From the NCBI GenBank assembly GCA_902386255.1, contig CABMII010000097.1, positions 1 through 32,835 on the forward strand: a stretch of DNA of 32,835 nt. The letters run 5' to 3'. How positions within the stretch are numbered: position 1 is the first letter of the stretch; each line of letters starts with the position of its first letter. The notes under the pieces are model-generated. The model saw only the letters and a list, made by a program, of their open reading frames with translations, was not told the origin of the DNA and made no database searches. A program made the translations under genes and the position numbers. The stretch comes from an uncultured archaeon. Its GTDB lineage: Archaea > Halobacteriota > Methanosarcinia > Methanosarcinales > Methanoperedenaceae. Below, piece by piece: positions 6,380-32,835 of this stretch.

Positions 6380-9300
6380 ATGAAGCTCATAATAGTTCTG
6401 GCTCTTCTCGTATGCGCTTTTACATCCACTGCTGCGGCGGGAGAAACCCTTCCGATTTACAACATTTCGGTCTCATTCGACATTCCGGAAAATCTCCTGA
6501 ATGGCGTCTCAACGATTACCATTCCTGAAAACATGGAGATGAATATTTCCACAGGTGACCTCATGATTTCTTCTGTGAAGCTAAACGGATCGCCTCTTTC
6601 ACCCGAGATTAAAGACGGTATATTTAAAGTAAAAGGCAAAGGCACGCTTGAAATATCTTTTGCTGGCAAGTTTGGGGAAGTAACGGGAACCCAGAATCCT
6701 GAAAATGCAGGTGTAGTCTCAAATGATATAATCAGCGAGGACGGAATATCCCTTACTGGCATGTGGTATCCGCATATAGAAGGCAGGGCATATTACCATC
6801 TGTCCGCACTCCTTCCTGAAGGTTTTACTGCAATCTCAGAGGCAGATGAGATTACTTCTGTGAATACACCGAAGGGTATGGAGTATTCTTTCAACTTTCC
6901 GCATCCCCTGAATGGAATAAACCTTGCTGCGGGCAAATATATGATACGGAAGGAGAGCTTCAATGGTACGGACATTTATGTATATTTTTTCCCGCAAGAC
7001 CTATCGGTTGACATTATCGGGTATTTTGATGATATCCAGCGTGCAGATACTTACCTTGAATATACGAAGAAATACCTGGAGATGTACGGGAAACTCATAG
7101 GCACTTATCCCTACAAGCGGTTTTCCGTTGTGGAGAACGTACTTCCCACAGGATATTCAATGCCCACGTTCACCCTCCTGGGCGGAGACGTGATGCGCCT
7201 CCCGTTCATTGTCAACACATCCCTTGGTCACGAGATATTGCACCAGTGGTTTGGGAATTATGTTTACGATGATTTCGAAAAGGGAAACTGGATAGAGGGA
7301 CTTACCACTTACCAGGCCGACCAGTTTTTTGAAAAGCAAAAAGGCGAGGGCGCGCAGTACAGGAAGAAACTCCTCACCGGCTACCAGAGTTATGTAAAAC
7401 CAGATAAAGAGGCCCAGCTTGCGGATTTCTACCAGAGGACTGACTTCGCATCCGAGGCAATCGGCTATGGAAAAGGGACAATGTTATTCAACATGCTGAA
7501 TAATGAGATAGGGGACGATGCATTCTACAGGGGATTGAGAGGGCTTATCAAAGAAAAGGCATTCCAGGAAGCAACCTGGGATGATGTAAGAATGGCTTTT
7601 GAAAATGCTTCGGGCAGGAACCTCGGGCGGTTTTTCAACCAGTGGCTCTACAGGAAAGGTGTAATATCAATCGATGTGCAAGACCAGAGAGTGGATGTCT
7701 TAAACGGTGTCCCGACAACATCTTTCAAAATCGTTCAGCAAGGTGAGCCGTATGAGTTTAATCTTTCAGTCAAGATAATTACAGACAAAGGCGAGCTCAC
7801 AAAAACATTGGAAATAAGCAAGGAAAATGAGACCTTCGAGATTCCTTCAAACGGGACACCGAGAGAGCTGGTTCTCGATGGAGGCTACGATTTGATGCGC
7901 AGTCTCCCGGAAAATGAATACCCGCCTGTTATAGCAAGGCTTCTTGGAGATGAAAAAAGGCTCATTGTTATTCCTGAAAATGATACGGGAAAATATGAGG
8001 CTCTGGCCAATATTTTCGAAAGTGAGGGATTTATTCCAATTAAGGAAAAAGAAATCAATGATGAAAATATAACAACATCATCCCTTCTCGTGTTGGGTTA
8101 TGATAGTCCGGTTATTAAAAGGCTCTTCGGCGGATGGAAAAAGCCGGCTCCCGGATTCAGCCTTGCAGTAGCAGATAATCCCCTTAATACATCGAAGGTG
8201 GTAGCTATTGCTTATGGCGATTCAAAGGACGAGGTTGACCTCGCTTCTGGAAAGATAGTCCACTACGGCCAGTATTCTTTCATAAGATTTGAAAAAGGTA
8301 AAAATGTAGAAAACAGGACTGATGAAACCGAACAGGGAATAAGGGTCAGCCTGGATGAGCCTGTGCCTGGCATCCAGCCCCAAAAGACAATCAAGTTCGA
8401 TGATATCATTCACAATATTTCTAATAAGACAATTATCTATGTCGCTGAAACCCACACCAATTACGAAGACCATAAGGTGCAGCTTTCGGTTATAATGAAT
8501 ATAGCAGATAATGGGAGCAAGTTTGCAATAGGAATGGAGATGTTCCAGAAACCTTTCCAGAAGGTAATTGATGATTATATTGCCGGGAACATAACCGAGA
8601 AGGAATTTTTAAAGAATACGGAATATTTCAAGAGATGGGGATATGATTATAATCTTTACAGGGAAATCATCGAGTTTGCAAGAGCAAAGAAAATCCCTAT
8701 CGTTGCCCTGAATCTCCGGTCAGAGATAATTGACAATGTTTCAAAGGGAGGTCTTGACATCCTCACTGATGAGGCGAAGAAAGAAATCCCCAGAGACATG
8801 GATATGTCTGATGTGGTTTACAGAAACAGGCTCAAGGAGATTTTCGACCAGCACGGAAACCAGGGATTTGACAATTTTAACTATTTCTACCAATCCCAGA
8901 TACTATGGGATGAAACCATGGCTCACTCGGTGGATGATTTCCTGAAACAGAACCCGGATTACCGCATGGTTGTACTTGCGGGTGCCGGGCATATCATGTA
9001 CGATTCAGGCATCCCGAAACGGGCATATAGACTGGATGGTAAAGATTATGCAACGTTGATACAAAATCCCGACAGCATTGATGAAAATATCGGGAATTTT
9101 GTGCTTTTCCCGAAATCCCAGTCGCCGCTCCCGACCATGCAGCTTGGGATTTTCCCTTCTGAATCAGGCGGCAGGGTTATAATCACGAATGTTGAAAGTG
9201 ATAGCGCTGCAGAGAAAGCAGGGCTCAAAGCAAATGACACCTTTATCACCATTGATGGCTGGAAGATTGAGACTATAGACGATTTGAGAATTTCCATTTT

Positions 9301-9385
9301 CGATAAAAAGCAAGGCGATACTGTCAAGGTCAGGGTATTGAGAGCCGGGAAAGAGCTTGAATTTACTGTGACACTTCTTCAGTAA
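6380..9385 (+). CDS. exported M1-like metallopeptidase fused to ChaN-like and PDZ domains
   Basis: A 1001-residue protein in three parts. Residues 1-20 form a signal peptide (hydrophobic core ending TAAAGE). Residues about 20-510 are an M1-aminopeptidase-like region: GHEILHQWFGN places zinc ligands at His284 and His288 with catalytic Glu285, and the third ligand Glu306 lies in NWIEGLTTY. Residues about 665-890 are a ChaN/Tiki-type domain, with VAETHTNYEDH at 686-696, IGMEMF, and LAGAGHIMYD near its end; ChaN proteins bind haem or act as metal-dependent hydrolases. The last 90 residues are a PDZ domain (SAAEKAGLKANDTF). The start ATG has GGGGG five bases before it. The protein should act outside the membrane, in peptide or haem-protein processing; this role is inferred from the domains. 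Its last seven bases overlap the end of vapC on the other strand. Confidence 0.88.
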   Translation: MKLIIVLALLVCAFTSTAAAGETLPIYNISVSFDIPENLLNGVSTITIPENMEMNISTGDLMISSVKLNGSPLSPEIKDGIFKVKGKGTLEISFAGKFGEVTGTQNPENAGVVSNDIISEDGISLTGMWYPHIEGRAYYHLSALLPEGFTAISEADEITSVNTPKGMEYSFNFPHPLNGINLAAGKYMIRKESFNGTDIYVYFFPQDLSVDIIGYFDDIQRADTYLEYTKKYLEMYGKLIGTYPYKRFSVVENVLPTGYSMPTFTLLGGDVMRLPFIVNTSLGHEILHQWFGNYVYDDFEKGNWIEGLTTYQADQFFEKQKGEGAQYRKKLLTGYQSYVKPDKEAQLADFYQRTDFASEAIGYGKGTMLFNMLNNEIGDDAFYRGLRGLIKEKAFQEATWDDVRMAFENASGRNLGRFFNQWLYRKGVISIDVQDQRVDVLNGVPTTSFKIVQQGEPYEFNLSVKIITDKGELTKTLEISKENETFEIPSNGTPRELVLDGGYDLMRSLPENEYPPVIARLLGDEKRLIVIPENDTGKYEALANIFESEGFIPIKEKEINDENITTSSLLVLGYDSPVIKRLFGGWKKPAPGFSLAVADNPLNTSKVVAIAYGDSKDEVDLASGKIVHYGQYSFIRFEKGKNVENRTDETEQGIRVSLDEPVPGIQPQKTIKFDDIIHNISNKTIIYVAETHTNYEDHKVQLSVIMNIADNGSKFAIGMEMFQKPFQKVIDDYIAGNITEKEFLKNTEYFKRWGYDYNLYREIIEFARAKKIPIVALNLRSEIIDNVSKGGLDILTDEAKKEIPRDMDMSDVVYRNRLKEIFDQHGNQGFDNFNYFYQSQILWDETMAHSVDDFLKQNPDYRMVVLAGAGHIMYDSGIPKRAYRLDGKDYATLIQNPDSIDENIGNFVLFPKSQSPLPTMQLGIFPSESGGRVIITNVESDSAAEKAGLKANDTFITIDGWKIETIDDLRISIFDKKQGDTVKVRVLRAGKELEFTVTLLQ

Positions 9386-16116: not shown

Positions 16117-18936
16117 CTATTCTCGTCTCATCTTCAACAGGGCAAGGTTTGATTCACATCTTTCAATTATACTTCGCAATCCATTCCCTTTCATTTCTTC
16201 AAAGATGTTCTGGGGAAGCAATACATAATTCCAGTTGCGAGGCTGATTTGTGAGAGGAATGTTCTTTATTCTTGACATTTGAGAACATTTTGATACAGCC
16301 GCAATTGCTTTTATTTTTGTATCAATATCTGTATTAGCATCTTTTGTGGATTTTGTCTCAATAATATACATGTCGTCTCTGGTTTTTACTAGGAAATCCG
16401 GATAATAAGGCACTAAATGTCCCATAGAATTTATGTAAGGAATAGAGAATTGATGCACATACTGGTTGAGTTTTACATAAGATTCAACTGAGGAATCATT
16501 CTCAAGCACATCTTCTGTAAATTTTCGCTCAAAACCACCTCTGGGTGGAAAATCGATATGTGGATACAGGCATTTTTTAGTTGGGATGGCTCGTTCCATG
16601 CGGATTTTTAAACTTTTGTAGTTCGAGAGTTTTGTCCATTCAGCTTCAATAACTTCGTTTGATTTTGCATTCTGTATAAATTTCATTAGCTTTTTTCTGA
16701 CTTCAGTTATAACAAAATCAAAAACTTGCTGATTTCTCAACCTTCTCAAATTTTCATCCTGATTGAAATCGATTTTTCTTCCAAATAAATAATCTGATAT
16801 ATACTGGTCAACTATCCCTGTAATATCAGGCGCAAAACGTGTAAGCCATGCTGTTCTCTTACTTCCCCCAATGATGCCTTTGACTGCATTTCGCAGGAAT
16901 ACGCTGTACGAGAAATTTGATTCTTCCAGTTCCCATTCCCGTCTATATTTTGTATCGGGATGAAAATCTGTAATCAGTATTTTGGTCTGCATTATTTCTT
17001 CAAAAGGTTTCTCAAAAAATGGTAGTTCAGAAACGTTGAAATATGAAAAATCAATTGCTTCTTCGGTTTTATATTCGAATGACACAGGCCAGCTCATATC
17101 CAGGGTTTTAATTCTCTCCTCATCAACGGTTATGAGCACGCTTTTAGTATCAAGGGATATATCGATGGAACTGCCGCTTGCGATCGCCGCACCCGCCTCA
17201 GTCAACTGTGTGTATATTTCATTATATTTGGGGTGTTCAACTACGAAAAGAAGGTCGTATGAATTGATTAGAGGTTCTTTATTCTTGATTTTCTGATAGT
17301 TTTCATTTTTTTCAGCTTTATATTCAGGCTCAGGGAACATCTGTCTAATCCCCCTGCCTATTACCTGCTCTGTAAGAAGGTCTGAATCTGAGCGCCGAAG
17401 CACTACAAGAACACACACATTTTTAACATCGAAACCCTCCCTGAGCATAAGGACACTGACGATTACCCGCACAGGATTTGAGGCATCATCGCTTGAGAAT
17501 ACCTTATTTCGCAGGGTTTCGTAATCCTCATCCGATAGTGAATCCTTTTTTCCGATGTGCAATGTCACTACCTGCTCACCTTTAGAATCGTCGCCGTATG
17601 ATCTTCCTGTTGAATCAGTCTTTTGCTTTATATAATCTGCAATCATGTTGGCTTCTTCATTCATGTCAGCCATTACGAACATGACTGGTTTTTTGTTAAT
17701 CTTGAATTTATTAAAATCATTTAGCAAAGAGTCAAGCTTAGCAAGCCCGATATCTATCATATGCTTCTGTACTTCCGAGAGTTCGATGGGCTTGTTACTC
17801 TCATCCCGGTGGGCAGTGACCATCAATTTTTCAGATTCAGGCAGAGATTCTATTTTATTTGAAAGAAGGCTGCTTTTTTCTATGAAAAGCTGTTTTACCA
17901 GCATCGCATGCATGGCTTCGACAAGCCCGTAATCATAAACCACATGCGGGAAAAATTCTTTTTTCTTTCCCTTTATCGTGAAAGGCGTAGCGGTGAAATC
18001 AAGTTGCGTGAACAGGGCATTTTTGTTGTGTTTGATTTTCTCCCTTAATTCCTCGATAGATTCCTGCCATCTTTTTTGTTCCGCATCCGAGGCATTATGG
18101 ACGTGGTGCGCCTCGTCGTTGATGACCATGAGGTCGCCATTGTATGTCAGGAAATCCATAAAACGCTCGACGCGCTGCGATATTGCGTCATCTATACTTT
18201 CTATACCTATATCCTCGGCAAGAGTGATTTCTTTCTTCCGTGAGGTATCCATCAGTTGATGCCAGTTGGTTATCAGGATAAAAGGTGATTCCGTGAATGG
18301 AGTACTTTCCTGCAAGTCTTCTTTTGAGAATATCCTGAGATCAAAATCCTGCCTTAGGTTATCGGGCATGAACAGGGATTTATTCAGATCAGCCGTCATT
18401 GGCTGCCTTTTTCCATTCCTTTTCTTTCCCAGAAATGAATCAAGCAGCCTTTCATATACTATGTTTCCTGGGGCTACAAGTAAGAAGTGGGATGCGAACC
18501 TTTTATCATTGAGGTTTACCCTGTTCCAGTATTGCCATATTATCAGGGCGGTAAGAACCCATGTTTTCCCAGTCCCTGTTGCCATTTTGATAGCAAATCT
18601 TGGATGTTCCATGGATTCAATCCCGTGGCGCAGGTTCTCTTTTTCGAGGAGTTCACATGAGAACTGCTTGAAGAGGGTTTCGACTTGGGGAATTCCGAGA
18701 ATCTCGTAACAATAAATTATTGTCTCGATGGCACGTCTCTGGCAGGTATGGAAAGATTCACCTTCATGAGCCATATCCGAGAACCAGTAATTTATGAGTT
18801 CTCTTGTTATGTGGGTAATTTGCTTACCGTTGGCCGGAGGATAATTGTCCGCAGACCATTTTTCAATGACTGGCTCTATGGATTTAGCGAGGGGATGCTT
18901 GCCGAATAATTCTGTTTTAGATTTTGCGCGCGCCAT
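16117..18936 (-). CDS. res: type III restriction endonuclease, helicase/nuclease subunit (Res)
   Basis: A 939-residue superfamily 2 helicase with a C-terminal nuclease. Walker A is ATGTGKT at residues 119-125, the DEAH-type Walker B is NDEAHH at 273-278, motif III is DFTATP at 313-318, and motif VI is QVIGRGIRQMF near 535-545. Near the C-terminus YPDFLVK and, about a dozen residues later, YIIETKS give the PD-(D/E)xK nuclease core expected of Res. The enzyme translocates or slides on DNA and cuts when two Mod-recognised unmodified sites meet. The reading frame is intact, so it is probably functional. It starts one base after the stop of a tiny coiled-coil gene and lies about 1.06 kb downstream of mod, with a GxxExxY gene and repeats in between. 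Confidence 0.93.
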   Translation of the reverse strand: MARAKSKTELFGKHPLAKSIEPVIEKWSADNYPPANGKQITHITRELINYWFSDMAHEGESFHTCQRRAIETIIYCYEILGIPQVETLFKQFSCELLEKENLRHGIESMEHPRFAIKMATGTGKTWVLTALIIWQYWNRVNLNDKRFASHFLLVAPGNIVYERLLDSFLGKKRNGKRQPMTADLNKSLFMPDNLRQDFDLRIFSKEDLQESTPFTESPFILITNWHQLMDTSRKKEITLAEDIGIESIDDAISQRVERFMDFLTYNGDLMVINDEAHHVHNASDAEQKRWQESIEELREKIKHNKNALFTQLDFTATPFTIKGKKKEFFPHVVYDYGLVEAMHAMLVKQLFIEKSSLLSNKIESLPESEKLMVTAHRDESNKPIELSEVQKHMIDIGLAKLDSLLNDFNKFKINKKPVMFVMADMNEEANMIADYIKQKTDSTGRSYGDDSKGEQVVTLHIGKKDSLSDEDYETLRNKVFSSDDASNPVRVIVSVLMLREGFDVKNVCVLVVLRRSDSDLLTEQVIGRGIRQMFPEPEYKAEKNENYQKIKNKEPLINSYDLLFVVEHPKYNEIYTQLTEAGAAIASGSSIDISLDTKSVLITVDEERIKTLDMSWPVSFEYKTEEAIDFSYFNVSELPFFEKPFEEIMQTKILITDFHPDTKYRREWELEESNFSYSVFLRNAVKGIIGGSKRTAWLTRFAPDITGIVDQYISDYLFGRKIDFNQDENLRRLRNQQVFDFVITEVRKKLMKFIQNAKSNEVIEAEWTKLSNYKSLKIRMERAIPTKKCLYPHIDFPPRGGFERKFTEDVLENDSSVESYVKLNQYVHQFSIPYINSMGHLVPYYPDFLVKTRDDMYIIETKSTKDANTDIDTKIKAIAAVSKCSQMSRIKNIPLTNQPRNWNYVLLPQNIFEEMKGNGLRSIIERCESNLALLKMRRE

Positions 18937-18937
18937 G

Positions 18938-19078
18938 TTACAACTTCAGTTTTTCTTTTTTCCAAAGCTCTTTCCTGACCTTTTCCAGTTTTTTCAAATC
19001 CTTCTCCCTGATATCCAATTTTTCTAATGTCTCTTCAATGACCTCTCTTTTTTTCTGATTTTTGATATCATTATCCAA
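18938..19078 (-). CDS. 46-residue highly charged coiled-coil protein between mod and res
   Basis: A short frame that starts with TTG at 19078, about nine bases after a strong AAGGAGG, and ends in TAA one base before the res ATG. A GTG at 19087 is possible but abuts the ribosome binding site. The product is about half Lys/Glu/Asp/Arg with Leu, Ile and Val at roughly heptad spacing (VIEETLEKLDIREKDLKKLE), so it should be one long amphipathic helix or coiled coil; a single Trp lies near the end. The stop-to-start spacing points to translational coupling with res. It could be a Res or Mod adaptor or an assembly factor; nothing in the sequence proves this. A stop codon lies upstream in frame at 19145, so the frame is not the tail of a longer gene. 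Confidence 0.6.
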   Translation of the reverse strand: MDNDIKNQKKREVIEETLEKLDIREKDLKKLEKVRKELWKKEKLKL

Positions 19079-19196
19079 CCGTAGCACCCTCCTTTTCAGA
19101 TATGAAATTTGGTTAACCGCAGATGAATGTAAACAAACGTACGATTAGCAATGTCATATAAGACTGCAAGTTGTCCTTTATTTGAAATGACGTATA

Positions 19197-19257
19197 GTTG
19201 CCTGGTATTATAGAATTTTAAACCGCAGATGAACACAGATAAACGCAGATTTATTGC
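19197..19257 (+). repeat. 61-bp direct repeat, copy 1
   Basis: The first of two 61-base copies that differ at only a few positions (ACA versus GCT in the middle). It contains the widespread CCGCAGATGAAC..AGATAAACGCAGAT interspersed motif joined to a unique GTTGCCTGGTATTATAG leader. A degenerate third motif is at 19115-19139. The 384-base stretch 19079-19462 holds these repeats and no convincing gene. Confidence 0.85.
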
Positions 19258-19323
19258 CTGGAGTTTATCTATGACCAACAGCAGTCCGCAAAGGACGTAT
19301 TTTATCACAATAATGAATGTTGG

Positions 19324-19384
19324 TTGCCTGGTATTATAGAATTTTAAACCGCAGATGAACGCTGATAAACGCAGATTTATTGCA
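19324..19384 (+). repeat. 61-bp direct repeat, copy 2
   Basis: The second copy, exactly 127 bases after copy 1. The 66 bases between the copies are not conserved, and there are only two full copies, so this is an interspersed repeat and not a CRISPR. Confidence 0.85.
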
Positions 19385-19462
19385 CGGGATTTGTGTATGC
19401 CCGATAGCAATGATTTTTGTTTCAATTCTGGTTTATTTTTATCTGTGTTCATCTTTCTCCCT

Positions 19463-20002
19463 TTAGATACCATTCACGATTCTTTTGATTTCTACCCTTG
19501 GCTTACTGAAATTGAAAAGAAGGCAAAGTTTGAGACCCGTTATTTTGAGATAATTAAGGCATTGAGCAGTGTGAATTGTGTCTAACTCTTTTACAGCTTT
19601 TACTTCAATTATGATTTCATTTTCAACCAGAATATCTGCAATATAGTCGCCAACTAATTCGTTTTTATAATAAACTTTTAAAGGCGCCTGCTGTAAACTT
19701 TTTAATCCCCTCAGGTTTAGTTCTATATTCAGGGCATTTTCATAGACCTTTTCAAGGAAACCCGCGCCGAGAACATTACTTACTTCAAAAGCGCAACCTA
19801 TTATTTCTTCAGACAAAGCATTTAATCTGCGTTCATCACTGCCGAAACCCTGCGGGTTCTCGACTCCGCACACACGCATGGCTGCGCCATGCGTGGATAT
19901 ACCCAAACAATCTTTTTCTATACTCACCGACTCATTAAATCTGCGTTCATCTGCGTTTATCTGCGGTTCGTTCTCTATAGAATCCCTTACAACCATAATC
20001 AT
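19463..20002 (-). CDS. GxxExxY family protein, coupled to mod
   Basis: A 179-residue frame. Residues about 61-179 are a clear GxxExxY domain: LSEEIIGCAFEVSNVLGAGFLEKVYENAL contains the name motif GFLEKVY. After it come the GDYIADILVENEIIIEVKA strand with the D...E.K carboxylate pattern reminiscent of PD-(D/E)xK nucleases, and the final FSKPRVEIKRIV. The family is common near mobile DNA and its function is unknown. The ATG at 20002 overlaps the mod stop by four bases (ATGA), implying translational coupling. The first ~60 residues are not family sequence: they are translated interspersed repeat (INADERRF, GSDERRLN) and a hairpin element at 19873-19895. The functional start may therefore be the internal ATG in that hairpin (MRVCG) or the whole tail may be tolerated. 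Confidence 0.8.
   Translation of the reverse strand: MIMVVRDSIENEPQINADERRFNESVSIEKDCLGISTHGAAMRVCGVENPQGFGSDERRLNALSEEIIGCAFEVSNVLGAGFLEKVYENALNIELNLRGLKSLQQAPLKVYYKNELVGDYIADILVENEIIIEVKAVKELDTIHTAQCLNYLKITGLKLCLLFNFSKPRVEIKRIVNGI
19824..19837 (-). repeat. interspersed CGCAGATT motif, short copy
   Basis: AATCTGCGTTCATC, the reverse complement of GATGAACGCAGATT, inside the GxxExxY frame; it encodes part of the DERRLN text. It is in opposite orientation to the copies at 19197 and 19324. Confidence 0.6.
19873..19895. repeat. perfect 10-bp stem hairpin inside GxxExxY N-terminus
   Basis: CACGCATGGC-TGC-GCCATGCGTG: a perfect ten-base-pair inverted repeat with a three-base loop, within a small GC-rich block at about 19846-19905. 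Hairpins like this occur as REP-type elements in intergenic DNA. Here it lies inside a reading frame without breaking it. Confidence 0.75.
19937..19969 (-). repeat. interspersed CCGCAGATAAACGCAGATG motif, inverted copy
   Basis: On the minus strand this reads ACCGCAGATAAACGCAGATG followed by AACGCAGATTT, the same motif as in the 61-bp repeats but in the other orientation. It encodes QINADERRF in the GxxExxY frame. Together with the copies at 19115-19384 it brackets the GxxExxY core. Confidence 0.8.
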
Positions 20003-22065
20003 CTCAAATTCAGTTCTTTAGTGACAGAAGCATCATTCCCGAAAACATCCACAACGCGAACAGCAATAGTATATTTCTTGCCCTTCTTCAGGCTCGCATC
20101 AGCAACAACTGGCACAGGCTCACCCTTCTTCCTGTCCCGCATCGCCTGCCATGTGCTCCTGAACACTTCGCCGTCGTAATCCCAATCCACAGTCCAGTAA
20201 TCGATGAGCGCGGCAAAGTTCTTTGCAAGCATCTTTTCTATTTCGGGGCGCTTTTCCTCATCTTTCAGAGGAATGTCAAGGACAACATACTGTTCCATCT
20301 TTATCTGAACATCCACAGTATCGCCATACCTCTGCCGCACGTTCGGCTCGCCCATTCTGAGGTAAGGCTTCTGGTAAAAAGTGATCTTATCAGCAAGCGA
20401 GCCGCCGTTTACGCCTGTCTTTCGGAGGTATTTCAGTACATCCGAAGGTATGACTTTAAATTCACAGGATGCAATCTCTTTTTTGTTGGCTTTGAGCCTC
20501 TCAAAGTCATTATCGAAATCAAGTTCATAATCCCATGCGAGTATCACAATTTTCTTGTACCCTTTCCCATCCGCGAGATATGCCTGCTTCGCAAGGTCTA
20601 TGGCTTTCCTGCCGGTCATGGGTCTATCAGGCTCGCACACAAAGACAAGCGTACTTTTATCATCCTGCTTTATCCCGAACCCCTGCATATCCTCGCGCGG
20701 CGCCGCACCGTAGAGCTTGAGGATGATATTGTACATCTCTTTGAGCTTCACATCGCGCATGTAGATGAGCTGGCGCTGATAATTACCGAGATTTTGAATC
20801 TGGAAGGGCGCTGCGTTCTGGTTCACAAGGCGCGCACGGGTTACCTGGATGGCGGTTTTTGATAGGTCTGTAGTAATCCAGCGCCGTCCAAGCTTTTCAG
20901 CGACTGCGGCTGTGGTGCCTGAGCCGCAGAAGAAGTCGGCGATGAGGTTCCCTTCGTTGGAAGAGGCTTTGATTATACGTTCAAGAAGTTTTTCAGGTTT
21001 TTGAGTGGGATATCCCAAAATTTCATTTCCAGTCTTGCTCGGAAGTATGTCAGTCCAAATAGATTGAACCCGTCTTCCTTTTTCCAAATATTCATCCATA
21101 TATTGTTTCAAATATGGTGTGTCAGTTTTTGAGAAATAGAGAAGGTTCTTTGCTTCAAGTTCATCAATTTTTTCTTGGGTATAACTCCAATGTCTTCCTT
21201 TTGGTGGTGCAATTAATTTCCCTCTAAATATACGGCTGGGCCCTGAGCCAGGTGCAGTTATCGGACCCGCAAAAAAGCGACGACCAGTATCTTCATCAAT
21301 TTCATTAAAACGAGTATTTATGTGTTCTTCAGAATGTGAAATATAAACTGGATAGTAATTCCAAGAATTACTTTTGCTATAAATAAAAATTGAATCATGC
21401 ACTACACCAAATTTGGTTGCATCATTATGTGCACCAGTCCTTTGCCAAACAATCTCATTTAAAAAGTTCACATTTCCGAACACTTCATCCATTATAATTT
21501 TTACATAATGGCTTATATTGGGGCCTATATGCACATAGATACTTCCATCATTTGCCAGTAATTTTTTCATCAACTGCAATCTCGGATACAGCATATCCAG
21601 AAAGCTGTCAATCCCCCTGTCCCACGTATCCGTATATGCCAGCCTCTCGCTCATTGGCATCTCTTTCTCAAACGTCTGATCCCCGATTGTAACCTCATTC
21701 GGGAAATTGAAATTCTCCCCTGTATTAAAAGGTGGATCGATATAAATCAAATCAATCTGCCCCTCATACCCCTGCGCCAGCAACGCCTGCATCACAAGCA
21801 GGTTGTCGCCCCAGATGAGGCGGTTGGGCTGGGTGTCAATCTCTTTCTTCTCAGCCTCAAAGAAACTGCGAAGGTCGCCAGTGGCTTTGTTGGGGACTAC
21901 TATTTCAGCGGTCTGAAAATCCAAATCCTTCGGCGAGGGCTCTTTCCTGGGCTTGGACGCCCATATCAGGCGCGCGGTGTCGCGCTGCTTCTTCTTTTCG
22001 GCGCCGTACTGGAGGCGCTCTTCCTGGACTGTGAAGTCCGGGGTTTGGGGGAATTCGGAGGACAT
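19999..22065 (-). CDS. mod: type III restriction-modification methyltransferase subunit (Mod)
   Basis: A 688-residue DNA amino-methyltransferase. The catalytic motif IV DPPF is at residues 110-113, before the SAM-binding motif I DFFCGSGTT at 377-385; this order defines the beta class used by type III Mod proteins, which make N6-methyladenine on one strand of an asymmetric site. Before motif IV is RLIWGDNLLVMQALL, and GYPTQKPEKLLERII precedes motif I as in the family. The region between about 230 and 345 is the variable part expected to hold target recognition. The frame is complete. A TATA box lies at 22093-22101. Its stop overlaps the start of the GxxExxY gene, and res follows further down, so mod leads the operon. 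Confidence 0.95.
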   Translation of the reverse strand: MSSEFPQTPDFTVQEERLQYGAEKKKQRDTARLIWASKPRKEPSPKDLDFQTAEIVVPNKATGDLRSFFEAEKKEIDTQPNRLIWGDNLLVMQALLAQGYEGQIDLIYIDPPFNTGENFNFPNEVTIGDQTFEKEMPMSERLAYTDTWDRGIDSFLDMLYPRLQLMKKLLANDGSIYVHIGPNISHYVKIIMDEVFGNVNFLNEIVWQRTGAHNDATKFGVVHDSIFIYSKSNSWNYYPVYISHSEEHINTRFNEIDEDTGRRFFAGPITAPGSGPSRIFRGKLIAPPKGRHWSYTQEKIDELEAKNLLYFSKTDTPYLKQYMDEYLEKGRRVQSIWTDILPSKTGNEILGYPTQKPEKLLERIIKASSNEGNLIADFFCGSGTTAAVAEKLGRRWITTDLSKTAIQVTRARLVNQNAAPFQIQNLGNYQRQLIYMRDVKLKEMYNIILKLYGAAPREDMQGFGIKQDDKSTLVFVCEPDRPMTGRKAIDLAKQAYLADGKGYKKIVILAWDYELDFDNDFERLKANKKEIASCEFKVIPSDVLKYLRKTGVNGGSLADKITFYQKPYLRMGEPNVRQRYGDTVDVQIKMEQYVVLDIPLKDEEKRPEIEKMLAKNFAALIDYWTVDWDYDGEVFRSTWQAMRDRKKGEPVPVVADASLKKGKKYTIAVRVVDVFGNDASVTKELNLR

Positions 22066-27011: not shown

Positions 27012-30000
27012 ATGGCTATTAAAATGAATGAAGGTCACTGTAAAAAGTGGATAAGGCGGGCAAGGCCGGTTGTAGTTTTGATTGTATTTGGTGCAGTCTT
27101 TTTTTCAGCAGCTCCTGCGGTAAATGCCGCCATGTCTCAACAAACGTTGAGATGTGATTCTGGCACTTCCATTGGTGTTGATACAACTAATTTTACATGC
27201 AGTACGGCTTCCACTCCTTATGACATAGGATTACTCATGAATACAACAGCCGGGACCAGCACTGTTATTCGAATAGCAACGGCTGGAAATGGACCATGGG
27301 TTTATGCTTATTTTATAAACAACACGGCATTTTCAGTTCCTACAAGGGTCACTGCGTATTCGGCTTCAATTCCTTTGAGGATAACAACAGCTGGTAGAAC
27401 AGATAAAGGATGGTATGAATTAGGATATTATGATCCAAATGGAGTTGCAGGTAATATGCCAGGTAATTTTGTTGGCTTATTCAATTCAACTGTGGCAACA
27501 ACTACCTCAGCGACCCAAACATCATTTGCAATATCATTTAGCGGTCAATCAGCAGTTATACCAGCCAATCGCAAATTGGCAATCAGGGTATGGATGAACG
27601 TCTCGGGTGCAACTGACAGGCCGTATTATTATTCATTCAGTACGGCAGCTAACTCTAATAGTTCATTCTTTGTTGACATTGTTCCCCTTCCAGGTTATAA
27701 CATCTCAGGCTATGTAACCAACAAGACCGGCGGCCAGCCCCTCAGCGGCGCTACAGTCCAGACCAACACAAGCCTGAACACAACCACGAACGCTACCGGT
27801 TTCTATAATTTCACGGGATTATTCAATGGGACATATGTCATTAATGCAACTCTCACAGGTTATTCTGTAAATTCGACATACGTAACAATTAACGGCGCTA
27901 ATAATAATACTGCAAATATATCACTTTCGCCTCTGCCGACTTATCAATTATCAGGCTACGTTACCAATGCTTCAAACGGACAGGCGATAACCGGAGCCAC
28001 GGTTACAACGAACACAGGACTTTCTGCCAACACAGACGGCACGGGCTACTATAGTTTTACTGTGGGCAACGGCACTTATATCATAACAGCCAGCAAGTCG
28101 GGCTATAATGATAATTCAACCACGCAAACAATAAACGGAAGCGCTGCAAGCAATGTTAATATTCTGCTTTTGCCCATCCCTCCGTCAATCGGTGGAAAAA
28201 TACTGATTGCAACGAACAGGTTCATAATTCTGGACGACATCAATTCAACAGGCGCAAGCGCAGACACAGCGTCAGGCTTTACCCTTCCGAACAGGAATTG
28301 GGGAACAAATAACTGGAAAGATATGAATACCCGCATAAATGTCACAGCGCTTTTTATAGATGACAATGGTTTTCCTGTATCAGGAAAAGTTATAAACTTC
28401 ACTTTATATTTCCCCAATTCAACGGCTTTAACCACTGTCAGCGACACCACAAATGCATATGGGTTAGCCAACTTCAGCTATGACATGAATGATAAAGATT
28501 ATTATGGAAAATGGCGTGTCAAGGCAGCTAACGGAAATCTTGGAGACAACGCAACCTTCATTTACAACTGGTGGGGTTGCACCTTCGCATCAGGCACATG
28601 CACAGGTCATAACTCTCAATCCCTCCCTACCGCCGTGACTGCTAACTCACCATATCTATCCGGCAGGGATACAACCACATCTCGAAATAATAACCACAAC
28701 GCTGCGACCACTAATTGCACGGAATGCCATCAATCATTCGATGGTTTGCCGGGTGGCAGCAATTCAGATGTGAACCATACAAGTTTTGCTTCAGACGTGC
28801 ATCACAATATACGGTGCGACAATGCTAATTGCCATGGCAGTTACACTGCTCACAACACAAATCAACTTATTAACTCCTGCTACAACGCAGGCTGCCATGG
28901 GAATGGCTCAGCATGGGACAGGAAAGACCTCTCGAACAAATCCACGCTGGACCGGTCAGATGTCAATACCGCGGTGAGCATTTATTCTTATAACAATGGT
29001 TCCTCTTTCAATGCAACCTTCCACACTCCCAACTCTACCGTGCCCTGTATCATCTGTCACGGACCCATGCACAACATAACCAAACCTGATGAATCCCAGC
29101 GGTTCATAAGAAACAACAATACTGAAGATTCCCAGTGCACAACCTGCCACTCAACATATACTGAGCACAATTCAAGCAATACAACATCGGGCGGCGTAAA
29201 CTGCACTCTCTGTCATAGCGACGATGTGCATTACATACAGGTGTTTGCGCAGAATGCAACGTATATAACCTTAAATAAAAATAATCCAAATCCAGCAAGA
29301 GGCGACTGCGCCAACTGCCACCAGAACACTACGTTCTTAACCGCTCTTAAGAACCAGACCAGGACAGGAAATTACGCAGGCAGGTACCCGCCACAGATTC
29401 CAAAACCCCTAAACCACAGCATTGATTCAATGAGCGGTGCCTTGTGGAATGGCACTCAAGTACGCTACTGGGACAACACGAGCCAGTTGAGCGCATGCAA
29501 TTATTGCCACGGATCAACACTTCACACCACTTCGGCGCTGGGCAGCATAAGCAATGTTAAAGGAACAAATAATTTGAACCAGATATTTACAAGCAGCACG
29601 TGGTGCGCCAACTGCCATTACAAGAATGCGCCCGATTACGGAGGGAACCTGTTCTCACCACAGCCGCCTGAAGTGTTAAACCAGAGCGGGCTTGTCCCGG
29701 CAATTTCCAGGAATGGCACTGCTTTCTACAACCATTCAAGTGTAGTTTCCTCAAGCTATGATGATGCTACGTGCAAGGGCTGCCATGATAACAACCTGAA
29801 TGCAGGGGCAACGTCTCTCAACTTTAGCCATAATGTAGGTAGAGGGCAGGCAGGAGGGGCCAACTGTACAAATTGCCACAATGCCGGAGGCTCAGCCGGT
29901 GCAGGAAAACTTGTTAACATCAGTGCAATGAACGATGTAAACGCCATCCACAGCGGCCTGAACAGCGGAGCCACTACAAGCCTGCCTGCAGAGAACAAGA

Positions 30001-32835
30001 AATGCTGGGCGTGCCACGGCAACGGCAGCGAACCGGCAGGCGGTCATCCGTCTAATTATAAAACTCCATATAACTGTCCGGACTGCCACGTAACGAGACA
30101 GAATCTGAACTTCACACCCAACACAACTCTGCTCACTGTAACACAGCACTATGCAAACGGCACCAGCATCATTACTTCTTCGGCTACTTCGTGTTATGGA
30201 TGCCATAACAGGACAGAAATGATGCTTGGCACAAATCTTGATCCGGATGGCGCTGGAACCGTATACGGTGGCGCCAATGGAGGAAGCAACAGTACAAGCC
30301 ATTATGGCAAGAAACGCACGGATTATCCGGCACAGGGAACAAACGATTATTGTAATAAATGCCACAACAACCAGACAACAGTATTCCCGTTCATCGATAA
30401 TGCAAACAAGACCATAGCAAACCACTCATCCGGCTATCCCTCTTCCAATCCGGACTGTGCGGACTGCCACCAGGCCGGCAGAATTCATAACAGTACACTT
30501 TACAAGCCGGCGTCACCCATGGATAATAACAGTTTATGCCTGGGTTGTCATGGCAACAACGGAACTGGCGGTACCAATTATACAAGAGCAGTAACGGGTT
30601 ATAAAGAAAACCATAACAATGCCGTAAATTGTACAGGCTGTCACCTCAACGATAGCAGGAGCATCCACCAGGTGCGGTACCTCCAGCAGGACGGCTCCAA
30701 CTTCAGCACATCAAAGACAAATGCAGTAAACTGTGTTACATGTCACGAGGGCGGTCTTGGAAACTTCAGCACTGCCCCGAAAATTCCGGCGACCTCTAAC
30801 CACAGCACCAGCATCTATAACGGGTCACTGTGGAATGGCAGCCAGCAGGGCTACTGGACAAACACCAGCCAGCAGAGCGCCTGCGATTACTGCCACAACA
30901 AGTCCGCCCTTCACAACGCTTCAGGGCTGGGTTATATCTCACTCATCCAGGGCGGCAACAGCAAGAACCAGAGCTTAAGCGGCGGGTTCTGGTGCGCCAA
31001 CTGTCACTTCGCCGGGGCGCCCGGCTATGCGGGTACCATGTATAATCCCCAGCCACCCGAAGTTTATAACAAGAGCGGTTTAGTCCCTGCAACAGCGCGG
31101 GATGGCAGCACCAGTTTCTTCAACCATTCAGGCAGCATTTCAATCTATGACGATGCCAAATGCAAGACCTGCCACAACAACATTCTCGGGGCAAGTGCGA
31201 CATCGCTCAACTTCGGCCATGATGTCCGGCCCGGCGGAGGGGGCTCTGATTGTCTCGCATGTCATGACATAACAGGAACAGGGGCACCAGCCAACAAGAA
31301 AATAAACGCCAGTGCCATGCGTTTGGGCGCCCACCGGAACCTGAACAAAAACGCCACCAGCACCACAGGAATAGACCCGCTCAACAAAGCATGCTGGGCA
31401 TGCCATGGTGACGGCATTGAGCCTAACGGTCACCCGGCAAACAAATCCAACCCGTGGTCATGCCCAGATTGCCACAACGCAACCACAAGGTTCACCAGTC
31501 CAAACTCAACGCTCATGAACGACACAACCGGAAAGAAAATATACAATCATATCCCTGGCAACTATACCACAGATGTCTTCAAGATTTACTCTGACTTCTG
31601 GAATCATTCAGTGAATTGTGCTGCATGCCACAATAAGAGCACAGTCTATTTCAATATCACGTTCACTGCGGTCGATCCGGTGGCCGCCAAAGTCTCGCAT
31701 TATGCGAACACCTCAAACCTGATAACTCCCACAATAAACTGTACCCTTTGCCACAAATCACCTGCGAACTCTCAGGAATGGTACGCTAACATCACAAGGC
31801 ATCCTGCGAAAAGCCAGAATGTGAGCTTCTGTGCCAACTGCCACAACACCACCAATGCAACAACCTTACACTCCCAACCCTTACGCCTTCCCATGGTAAT
31901 ACACGGCGGCTGGCAGACAGGAGGCGGATTTGACTGGGAAAATAACTCAGCCACTCTGGACGGGGCTGCGTGCTATGCCTGCCACGGCACGGGAAACCCG
32001 GGCACGATCTCGGCGAACCTCCAGAGCGTCAAACTGTGCGAGAACTGCCACGTAAACGCCAGCCCAATATTCACAGGCCCGAACAGGACTGCTTTCTATA
32101 CCCTGAGGAGCGACATCAACGATACGCTGCCCTATGTTTATTCCCATACGAGTTATTCCAACATAACTGGCACTAACGTAAGAGTACCCTCGCAAGGCGG
32201 GACTGCAACATATCCAACCACATGCTATGTTTACAACGCAGTCACGGGAGCAGGAACATGCCATGCAGCCCCGTATTTCAACAGGTCGAATTTCGGAGGT
32301 TACTTTGCACAGTATAACAGTCCCGATGGGCCAGTTGACAAGTATGACCCGCCTCACTGGACCGGGACAATAGACCGCATGCCAGTTACTACAAATTGCT
32401 TATTCTGTCACAACCAGAGCAATGAAACAATAAGGAAAGGATGGGGCAATGCAACGCAGGTAAACGCAGGCAACATGTTCGGGGCTACAACCAACGATTC
32501 GTGCTATACCTGTCATACGAGGAGCGGCAAGCAGCCTGTGGATTTCCATTCAAACGAAGTAGTGTCTGGCGGCAGTCCCGGATGCCTTGGCTGCCATAAT
32601 AATTCCAATCCACAGAACTTCACAGGCATGCATTACATAGACGGGGCGAACTTCAGCCTATCAGTGCATGCAAACATGAACAGCAACAACGCCTCAGGTT
32701 ATGGCATTAACGCAAGCTGTTGGGCATGCCATAACTCAAGCGGCTACGCAGTAGCTAACAACACCCATCCTGACAGGAGAGATACGCCGTACACATGCCC
32801 GGACTGCCACTTAGCAAATGGAAGCAACGCAGGTG
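27012..32835 (+). CDS. giant secreted multihaem c-type cytochrome, 3' end cut by window
   Basis: One frame of 1941 codons runs open to the window end. An in-frame stop at 27000-27002 and no earlier ATG fix the start at 27012 (ATG 27024 is possible). Residues 1-42 are a signal peptide: a basic stretch, then VVVLIVFGAVFFSAAPAV, cleaved near NAA. Residues about 45-228 form a beta-rich domain. About 229-310 and 311-392 are two carboxypeptidase-regulatory-like beta domains (each opening SGYVTN and containing a SGAT or TGAT turn). About 400-525 look Ig-like. From residue 569 on there are 33 CxxCH haem motifs, two CX4CH (28815, 28878) and one possible CX11CH (32223). Asn-x-Ser/Thr sequons are abundant, fitting a glycosylated surface protein. 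It should conduct electrons outside the membrane, as in ANME archaea. The haem region is built of related ~1.4 kb units. Confidence 0.93.
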   Translation, partial: MAIKMNEGHCKKWIRRARPVVVLIVFGAVFFSAAPAVNAAMSQQTLRCDSGTSIGVDTTNFTCSTASTPYDIGLLMNTTAGTSTVIRIATAGNGPWVYAYFINNTAFSVPTRVTAYSASIPLRITTAGRTDKGWYELGYYDPNGVAGNMPGNFVGLFNSTVATTTSATQTSFAISFSGQSAVIPANRKLAIRVWMNVSGATDRPYYYSFSTAANSNSSFFVDIVPLPGYNISGYVTNKTGGQPLSGATVQTNTSLNTTTNATGFYNFTGLFNGTYVINATLTGYSVNSTYVTINGANNNTANISLSPLPTYQLSGYVTNASNGQAITGATVTTNTGLSANTDGTGYYSFTVGNGTYIITASKSGYNDNSTTQTINGSAASNVNILLLPIPPSIGGKILIATNRFIILDDINSTGASADTASGFTLPNRNWGTNNWKDMNTRINVTALFIDDNGFPVSGKVINFTLYFPNSTALTTVSDTTNAYGLANFSYDMNDKDYYGKWRVKAANGNLGDNATFIYNWWGCTFASGTCTGHNSQSLPTAVTANSPYLSGRDTTTSRNNNHNAATTNCTECHQSFDGLPGGSNSDVNHTSFASDVHHNIRCDNANCHGSYTAHNTNQLINSCYNAGCHGNGSAWDRKDLSNKSTLDRSDVNTAVSIYSYNNGSSFNATFHTPNSTVPCIICHGPMHNITKPDESQRFIRNNNTEDSQCTTCHSTYTEHNSSNTTSGGVNCTLCHSDDVHYIQVFAQNATYITLNKNNPNPARGDCANCHQNTTFLTALKNQTRTGNYAGRYPPQIPKPLNHSIDSMSGALWNGTQVRYWDNTSQLSACNYCHGSTLHTTSALGSISNVKGTNNLNQIFTSSTWCANCHYKNAPDYGGNLFSPQPPEVLNQSGLVPAISRNGTAFYNHSSVVSSSYDDATCKGCHDNNLNAGATSLNFSHNVGRGQAGGANCTNCHNAGGSAGAGKLVNISAMNDVNAIHSGLNSGATTSLPAENKKCWACHGNGSEPAGGHPSNYKTPYNCPDCHVTRQNLNFTPNTTLLTVTQHYANGTSIITSSATSCYGCHNRTEMMLGTNLDPDGAGTVYGGANGGSNSTSHYGKKRTDYPAQGTNDYCNKCHNNQTTVFPFIDNANKTIANHSSGYPSSNPDCADCHQAGRIHNSTLYKPASPMDNNSLCLGCHGNNGTGGTNYTRAVTGYKENHNNAVNCTGCHLNDSRSIHQVRYLQQDGSNFSTSKTNAVNCVTCHEGGLGNFSTAPKIPATSNHSTSIYNGSLWNGSQQGYWTNTSQQSACDYCHNKSALHNASGLGYISLIQGGNSKNQSLSGGFWCANCHFAGAPGYAGTMYNPQPPEVYNKSGLVPATARDGSTSFFNHSGSISIYDDAKCKTCHNNILGASATSLNFGHDVRPGGGGSDCLACHDITGTGAPANKKINASAMRLGAHRNLNKNATSTTGIDPLNKACWACHGDGIEPNGHPANKSNPWSCPDCHNATTRFTSPNSTLMNDTTGKKIYNHIPGNYTTDVFKIYSDFWNHSVNCAACHNKSTVYFNITFTAVDPVAAKVSHYANTSNLITPTINCTLCHKSPANSQEWYANITRHPAKSQNVSFCANCHNTTNATTLHSQPLRLPMVIHGGWQTGGGFDWENNSATLDGAACYACHGTGNPGTISANLQSVKLCENCHVNASPIFTGPNRTAFYTLRSDINDTLPYVYSHTSYSNITGTNVRVPSQGGTATYPTTCYVYNAVTGAGTCHAAPYFNRSNFGGYFAQYNSPDGPVDKYDPPHWTGTIDRMPVTTNCLFCHNQSNETIRKGWGNATQVNAGNMFGATTNDSCYTCHTRSGKQPVDFHSNEVVSGGSPGCLGCHNNSNPQNFTGMHYIDGANFSLSVHANMNSNNASGYGINASCWACHNSSGYAVANNTHPDRRDTPYTCPDCHLANGSNAG
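29046..30455 (+). repeat. cytochrome internal unit 1
   Basis: The first of two clearly related consecutive coding units inside the cytochrome, running from CIICH to just before CADCH. It includes the landmark series LWNG..YW.NTSQ.SAC.YCH, FWCANCH-like WCANCHYKNAP, PQPPEV, SGLVPA, YDDA.CK.CH, ATSLNF.H, CWACHG and CPDCH. Similarity to unit 2 is at the protein level and partly at the DNA level. Confidence 0.75.
30456..31829 (+). repeat. cytochrome internal unit 2
   Basis: This repeats the order of unit 1 with an offset of about 1390-1430 bases: CADCH, CLGCH, CTGCH, CVTCH, then LWNGSQQGYWTNTSQQSAC, WCANCHFAGAPGY, PQPPEV, SGLVPA, YDDAKCKTCH, ATSLNFGH, CWACHGDG and CPDCH. A third CWACH..HP..CPDCH block at 32718-32810 lies 1326 bases after the second, so a third, more diverged unit probably runs off the window. 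The right boundary is approximate. Confidence 0.7.

Follow-up and report, generated by a model that had tools for sequence, protein, structure and literature searches.

The exceptionally large secreted multihaem cytochromes (MHCs) of ANME archaea within the Methanosarcinales have been divided into types A, B and C (Chadwick et al., 2022, PMC9012536). Types B and C carry haem-free surface domains at the N-terminus, and type C has neither an S-layer domain nor a C-terminal helix (PMC9012536). Giant cytochromes are also the suspected outlet of Ca. Methanoperedens, a freshwater methane sink able to respire minerals and electrodes. At the level of the genus, cytochrome-mediated extracellular electron transfer is experimentally supported (PMC10542353, PMC10874420).

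The window analysed here is an entire contig (C97, 32,835 bp) of a 2.60-Mb genome in 172 contigs (G000), the best named matches of which are Ca. Methanoperedens; the genus comparison comprised G000 and 30 further genomes. No recognisable mcrA was found in G000, a 96%-complete Methanoperedens MAG; the gene is present in 23 of the 31 genomes of the genus, and its absence from G000 is probably a binning gap. With mcrA missing, methanotrophy of the host is assumed from its genus. The gene under study, MHC1, lies at the end of the window. Two other loci in the window are of separate interest: a probable restriction-modification set (16117-22065) consisting of an N6/N4 DNA methylase, a PD-(D/E)XK protein and a ResIII helicase with a weak TnsA-like end, and a 1001-aa protein (6380-9385) with the odd combination of M1 peptidase-like, ChaN/Tiki haem-binding and PDZ domains.

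The open frame and its N-terminal modules

On the plus strand, positions 27012-32834, the list of open reading frames contains one frame of 1941 aa that is still open where the window stops. Since the window is the whole of C97, the frame is cut by the assembly and not by a stop. Its features are as follows.

27012..32835, + strand: MHC1, residues 1-1941, truncated at its 3' end where the contig stops; about 2586 aa predicted for the complete protein (ORF; shared 127-bp ends and synteny for the missing part)
27012..27131, + strand: predicted secretion signal, residues 1-40, with n-region KKWIRR, hydrophobic core and A-x-A-like site (hydropathy, alignment of relatives)
27132..27686, + strand: N-terminal beta-rich domain, residues 41-225 (AlphaFold model; conserved in relatives; without Pfam match)
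27702..27926, + strand: CarboxypepD_reg-like domain 1, residues 231-305 (PF13620, E 4e-22; pLDDT about 90)
27942..28175, + strand: CarboxypepD_reg-like domain 2, approximately residues 311-388, boundaries approximate (second PF13620 stretch; beta-strands 311-388, pLDDT about 90)
28191..28571, + strand: Ig/MG2-like domain, approximately residues 394-520 (conserved directly before the haem array in many relatives)
28716..28898, + strand: entry haem motifs, CxxCH at 569 and CX4CH at 602 and 623 (motif scan)
29034..30428, + strand: 12-haem brick 1, residues 675-1139 (brick profile E 9e-151, full length 1-435)
30444..31793, + strand: 12-haem brick 2, residues 1145-1594 (brick profile E 4e-124, 1-426 of 435)
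31809..32835, + strand: third, divergent brick, first part, residues 1600-1941, running past the contig (two partial brick matches)
32709..32835, + strand: 127-bp repeat at the contig end, with the same sequence as the C90 end; assembly branch point (end comparison)

The window part of MHC1 contains exactly 33 CxxCH motifs (mean 0.14 and maximum 2 in 2000 composition shuffles), in agreement with the minimum of 33 counted in the initial annotation, as well as two CX4CH motifs and one CX11CH motif (residue 1738, window 32223-32264); the latter is conserved in the proteins of C90, G006 and G025 and is possibly an unusual haem site. Residues 16-37 are hydrophobic and are accompanied by an A-x-A-like site that is conserved in relatives, consistent with the signal peptide proposed earlier, and by motif count and predicted export signal MHC1 qualifies as a secreted multihaem c-type cytochrome. 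In a Pfam search, MHC1 yielded two CarboxypepD_reg stretches, which bear out the two carboxypeptidase-regulatory-like domains of the initial annotation, seven stretches of the MtrC/MtrF II-IV model and nine of Cytochrome_C7. The Ig-like domain, also proposed there, falls below the Pfam cut-off in MHC1 (MG2, E 0.0024) and is supported by the homologous region of a 5599-aa relative (see below), which passes for MG2 and Big_1, and by the AlphaFold model of residues 394-520, which is mostly beta.

A fold search with the stalk (residues 41-520) revealed resemblance to the beta-sandwich domains of the pilin SpaA, of SdrD and of the S-layer stalk SlaB. The earlier description of the N-terminus as adhesin-like thus holds for the fold; the modules alone do not prove adhesion, because relatives whose C-termini differ markedly have them as well. 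The protein contains 111 N-glycosylation sequons, compared with 46.6 +/- 5.7 in shuffles, and six cytosolic-type proteins of the window are without such an excess; MHC1 is therefore probably N-glycosylated. The general picture of a giant secreted multihaem cytochrome of the ANME kind with beta-sandwich surface modules is accordingly supported, with Ca. Methanoperedens as the host.

An array of 12-haem bricks

Two features of MHC1 had escaped the initial annotation: the haem region is an array of repeated 12-haem units ("bricks"), and the contig breaks in a repeat that is common to a second giant cytochrome (MHC2) of the same gene cluster. The brick was delineated with an iterated 435-position profile, for which the fetched proteins supplied 89 full copies. 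The alignment has exactly 12 conserved CxxCH motifs and exactly 12 conserved columns of free histidines, ten of which are occupied in at least 92% of the copies and the other two in 78% and 66%. Twelve free histidines is the number needed for 12 bis-His haems, and such ligation can be inferred. Successive copies are separated by about 5 residues. Units were counted in 49 proteins and fragments that exceed 700 aa and contain one unit or more. These were picked by similarity to the window protein and hence describe that family rather than all Methanoperedens cytochromes; among them, the number of units correlates with the number of CxxCH motifs (r = 0.988), and 1589 of the 1757 motifs fall inside the units. 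Defined in this way, as tandem units of about 435 aa, a brick array is recognised in MHC1, which has two full copies and a divergent third in the window and a predicted fourth in the tail encoded on another contig of G000, C90; the window part of the third brick shares 75% identity with the second giant cytochrome, on C90.

The two complete bricks of the window protein are only 39% alike, so MHC1 exemplifies the architecture rather than recent amplification, for which the evidence comes from relatives. In the 5599-aa protein of G008 (C49, 10792-27591; L061+L062), with 113 CxxCH motifs and about 9 brick units, the five middle bricks are 64-88% alike and the three outer full bricks are 32-47% like those; a similar pattern is found in proteins of G026 and G021. 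Given that the middle bricks are alike and the outer ones divergent, the middle bricks seem to amplify between older end bricks. The simpler idea that a brick has its nearest relative within its own gene was rejected, as it holds for only 20 of 74 bricks (shuffled mean 1.6); it fails because outer bricks are old and position-specific, and middle bricks are recent copies in some genes. Taken together, the brick rule suggests that these giant cytochromes grow by brick copying. Brick matches with E <= 1e-30 were detected in 14 of 295 sampled genomes of the phylum, in five families besides that of the window genome, which implies that the brick is older than Methanoperedens or shared beyond it.

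A profile search of solved structures gave no whole-brick match, the best being a partial match to UndA (E 8e-12). The structure prediction suggested by the initial annotation for the haem region was run on two bricks and produced a model of low confidence (pLDDT 54.6, pTM 0.34), again with no solved-structure match. In the literature searched, no description of a repeated brick, or of the ResB link considered below, was found for Methanoperedens, which is not proof of absence.

The missing C-terminus and the gene cluster

Three contigs of G000 share their termini: C97 and C90 have the same 127 bp at their ends, and C90 and C31 have the same 127 bp at their starts. These shared ends are the signature of an assembly graph with k = 127 broken at a repeat, R, that would be present twice, in the order C97-R-C90-R-C31. 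This reading is consistent with G025, where a single unbroken contig encodes MarC, DUF4346, CofH-like, aminotransferase, MHC1, FG-GAP beta-propeller, 6-haem cytochrome, radical SAM, thioredoxin-like, ResB, CcsB and MHC2. In G000 the cluster appears to be split, with the first part of MHC1 and the genes before it on C97, and the MHC1 tail and the genes after it on C90. The alternative path C97-R-C31 was rejected on the basis of the tails, that of C31 being of the MHC2 type (G006, G030) and that of C90 of the MHC1 type (G025).

The repeat R corresponds to 165 aa with 3 CxxCH motifs in G006 and G025 alike, a length taken from two draft assemblies that could have collapsed repeats. C90 begins with a frame of 480 aa and 10 CxxCH motifs, the predicted MHC1 tail. 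As the relatives have 165 aa between the parts found on C97 and C90, the predicted whole MHC1 has 1941 + 165 + 480 = 2586 aa or thereabouts and 33 + 3 + 10 = 46 CxxCH motifs, to which CX3-4CH and CX11CH motifs would add about 6 further possible haem sites, for up to about 52 haems. The 165-aa piece itself was not found in G000: the last 236 bp of the window match only C97 and C90, and there is no direct end-to-start overlap between contig ends, from which it follows that the joining contig is absent from the bin. The frame, its motifs, the bricks and the genes of the cluster are read directly, and the missing tail is deduced from relatives.

The possibility that the open frame is itself a misassembly, with unrelated genes joined or a repeat collapsed and a true order or length that differs, draws on the fact that C97 does end in a repeat common to a paralogue and that MHC1 and MHC2 form a mosaic, in which, over residues 1389-1753, DNA divergence drops from 47% to 9%, reaching 0 at the contig end. 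It is nevertheless very improbable. Residues 39-1941 of MHC1 are collinear, at 64% identity, within one uninterrupted 2856-aa frame of G006, and one frame of G025 combines the N-terminus with two complete bricks and the C-terminal tail. Moreover, the differences between MHC1 and MHC2 at codon positions 1/2/3 (98/91/206 in the part common to C97 and C90) are as expected of a selected protein. The collinearity and the codon-position pattern argue against the assembly fusion that the initial annotation had named as a refuting outcome, and its single frame of 1941 residues, open at the window edge, is confirmed by the ORF and the contig end. The fall of the divergence to 0 at the contig end instead indicates recent exchange of MHC1 with its neighbour MHC2, the N-terminal region of which matches the PGF-pre-PGF domain. 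Separately, G006 encodes a hybrid giant cytochrome (C9, 11708-20278; L059+L060) with an MHC2-type N-terminus, an MHC1-type stalk and array and an MHC2-type tail, an arrangement that suggests recombination between paralogues.

The predicted MHC1 ends in ...GCHVQPSTGGRRGR, an arginine-rich tail, and the stop of the tail frame on C90 is preceded by ...CFSAGCHVQPSTGGRRGR. The S-layer domain (PF07752), which is present elsewhere in G000, for example on C50, is absent from the window part and the C90 tail in the Pfam search and from the 165-aa gap as judged from relatives, and the C90 tail lacks a C-terminal transmembrane helix (maximum 19-residue mean hydropathy 0.72). The downstream extension proposed in the initial annotation, for which the synteny of relatives supplied the join, thus yields neither segment in the predicted tail. 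Of the suggestion that the protein is anchored or docked at the cell surface, anchoring by its own C-terminus is unsupported, given a predicted tail without S-layer domain or membrane helix, and docking via partners or the stalk is possible.

The cluster around MHC1 includes, besides MHC2, a 6-haem cytochrome with a C-terminal helix, by which it would be anchored, an FG-GAP beta-propeller protein and a ResB/CcsB pair. The FG-GAP gene (C90, L013, 1406-4291) abuts the giant cytochrome with the arginine-rich type of tail in five genomes (G000, G025, G006 (C55), G026 and G033), and its product is a likely partner of the giant cytochrome.

The ResB and CcsB genes (C90, L013, 7330-9568) lie between the two giant cytochromes. 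ResB matches PF05140 (E 2e-53), and CcsB passes the System II equivalog TIGR03144 (197.0 bits, cut-off 187.6). A survey from 2015 had reported that System II proteins were not found in archaea (PMC4429474); the ResB family also matches in a Methanosarcina acetivorans control. ResB is single in G000 and is present in 16 of the 31 genomes of the genus. A giant brick cytochrome adjoins the pair in G000, G025, G006, G005, G012, G008, G019 and G034, and CcsB alone in G027; these counts come from stretches chosen for the cytochrome and therefore give adjacency conditional on a cytochrome. Roughly half of the genomes in the genus have no ResB hit, so giant cytochromes as a class do not need the System II link. 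A CcmF-like protein on C26 of G000, below the family cut-off, indicates that System I is probably present too. CcmF2, which adjoins the type B MHC of ANME archaea, provides a known parallel for a haem-attachment gene beside a giant cytochrome (PMC9012536), and the ResB/CcsB pair probably attaches the haems of MHC1.

Proposed function and relation to known systems

From its sequence features, MHC1 is likely to serve Ca. Methanoperedens as an extracellular electron conduit that is secreted and probably N-glycosylated. We infer its localisation, electron path and acceptor, together with the haem ligation and the role of ResB/CcsB, along the following lines. The beta-sandwich stalk would bear a linear array of tandem 12-haem bis-histidine bricks, in the predicted order of 3 entry haems, brick, brick, divergent brick, brick and 2 terminal variant motifs, with the haems attached probably by ResB/CcsB or Ccm. 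MHC1 would have the membrane-anchored 6-haem cytochrome, the beta-propeller protein and the second giant cytochrome as working partners, either outside the cell envelope or within it. Electrons from the membrane side would enter via smaller cytochromes, for example the anchored 6-haem one of the cluster, and hop from haem to haem along the bricks to an external acceptor (metal oxide, electrode or partner cell), and a separate S-layer-fused cytochrome of G000 could pass electrons through the S-layer.

Two other functions have to be weighed against that of a conduit. MHC1 could act at the cell surface as the terminal reductase of a metal oxide or an electrode; the beta-sandwich would then bind mineral or matrix, with the array serving mainly as a docking and discharge surface rather than a long conduit. 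The match of the haem units to the MtrC/MtrF II-IV model, the fact that the best solved-structure profile match is UndA, an outer-surface metal-reducing cytochrome, and the pilin, adhesin and S-layer stalk folds of the stalk are all compatible with this role. It appears rather unlikely, however, as the MtrC and UndA matches cover only brick positions 204-376 and owe part of their score to the CxxCH motifs, and a terminal reductase has no obvious need for 4 bricks, let alone for the up to about 9 that relatives have. A haem-rich electron store (capacitor) in the envelope, which buffers when acceptors are scarce and whose capacity is set by the number of bricks, would account for some 50 haems in one chain and for a brick copy number that differs widely across genomes, with middle bricks amplifying in some relatives. 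A store could do without contiguous bricks and without conservation of every haem position, although these features do not speak against one, and this role is improbable; conduction and storage are nonetheless compatible.

Giant archaeal cytochromes might more generally be length-tuned wires. The first and last bricks would stay fixed, a 12-haem bis-His brick would undergo amplification or gene conversion between them, the number of bricks would set the reach, and a dedicated System II pair would serve these proteins in part of the genus. This generalisation is put forward tentatively; if true, it provides a simple, testable rule, that brick number equals reach. If the arrays consist of one brick, the origin and working of a 50- or 113-haem protein reduce to those of one unit of about 435 residues and a linker. 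As a warning, short-read assemblies will break or collapse genes for brick arrays.

Among the described proteins, the 113-haem MHC/S-layer protein of Ca. M. manganireducens (PMC7082337, PMC7327174) belongs to the same genus, and the 113-CxxCH protein of G008 equals this record-holder in haem count. The G008 protein shares with MHC1 the brick and the Ig-like domain before the array; at its end it has an S-layer domain together with a hydrophobic C-terminal stretch, both of which MHC1 lacks, whereas MHC1 has two carboxypeptidase-regulatory-like domains and about 4 bricks instead of about 9. From the predicted sequence, MHC1 fits none of the three named ANME types. With type C it shares the absence of both an S-layer domain and a C-terminal helix, the same absences that set it apart from types A and B. 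Its N-terminal domains are carboxypeptidase-regulatory-like and Ig-like rather than pectin lyase-like or peptidase M6-like; in particular, Pfam gives carboxypeptidase-regulatory-like domains where type B has a peptidase M6-like domain. The maturation genes also differ, being ResB/CcsB beside MHC1 and CcmF2 beside type B.

With MtrC, MtrF and UndA of Shewanella, MHC1 shares the seven stretches of the MtrC/MtrF II-IV model and the partial UndA profile match; there is no full-length match, and MHC1 is archaeal, several times longer and built of a repeated 12-haem brick. Scores for the MtrC/OmcA and DmsE decahaem families are below the cut-offs (TIGR03507, 47.7 bits against 209.3; TIGR03508, 79.8 against 192.2). 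The polymeric periplasmic cytochromes of Geobacter, with their tandem trihaem c7 domains, are likewise long by repetition of a unit, albeit a different and much smaller one (3 haems). The nanowires OmcS, OmcE and OmcZ and the archaeal PcECN and AvECN (PMC12954529), none of which was among the solved-structure matches of the brick profile, are also haem chains for long-range extracellular electron transfer, but are polymers of small separate subunits, whereas the units of MHC1 are fused in one polypeptide. Giant cytochromes of Methanoperedens are thus already known (PMC7327174), and what the present comparison would add to them is an anchorless C-terminus resolved through relatives, the brick rule and the link to System II.
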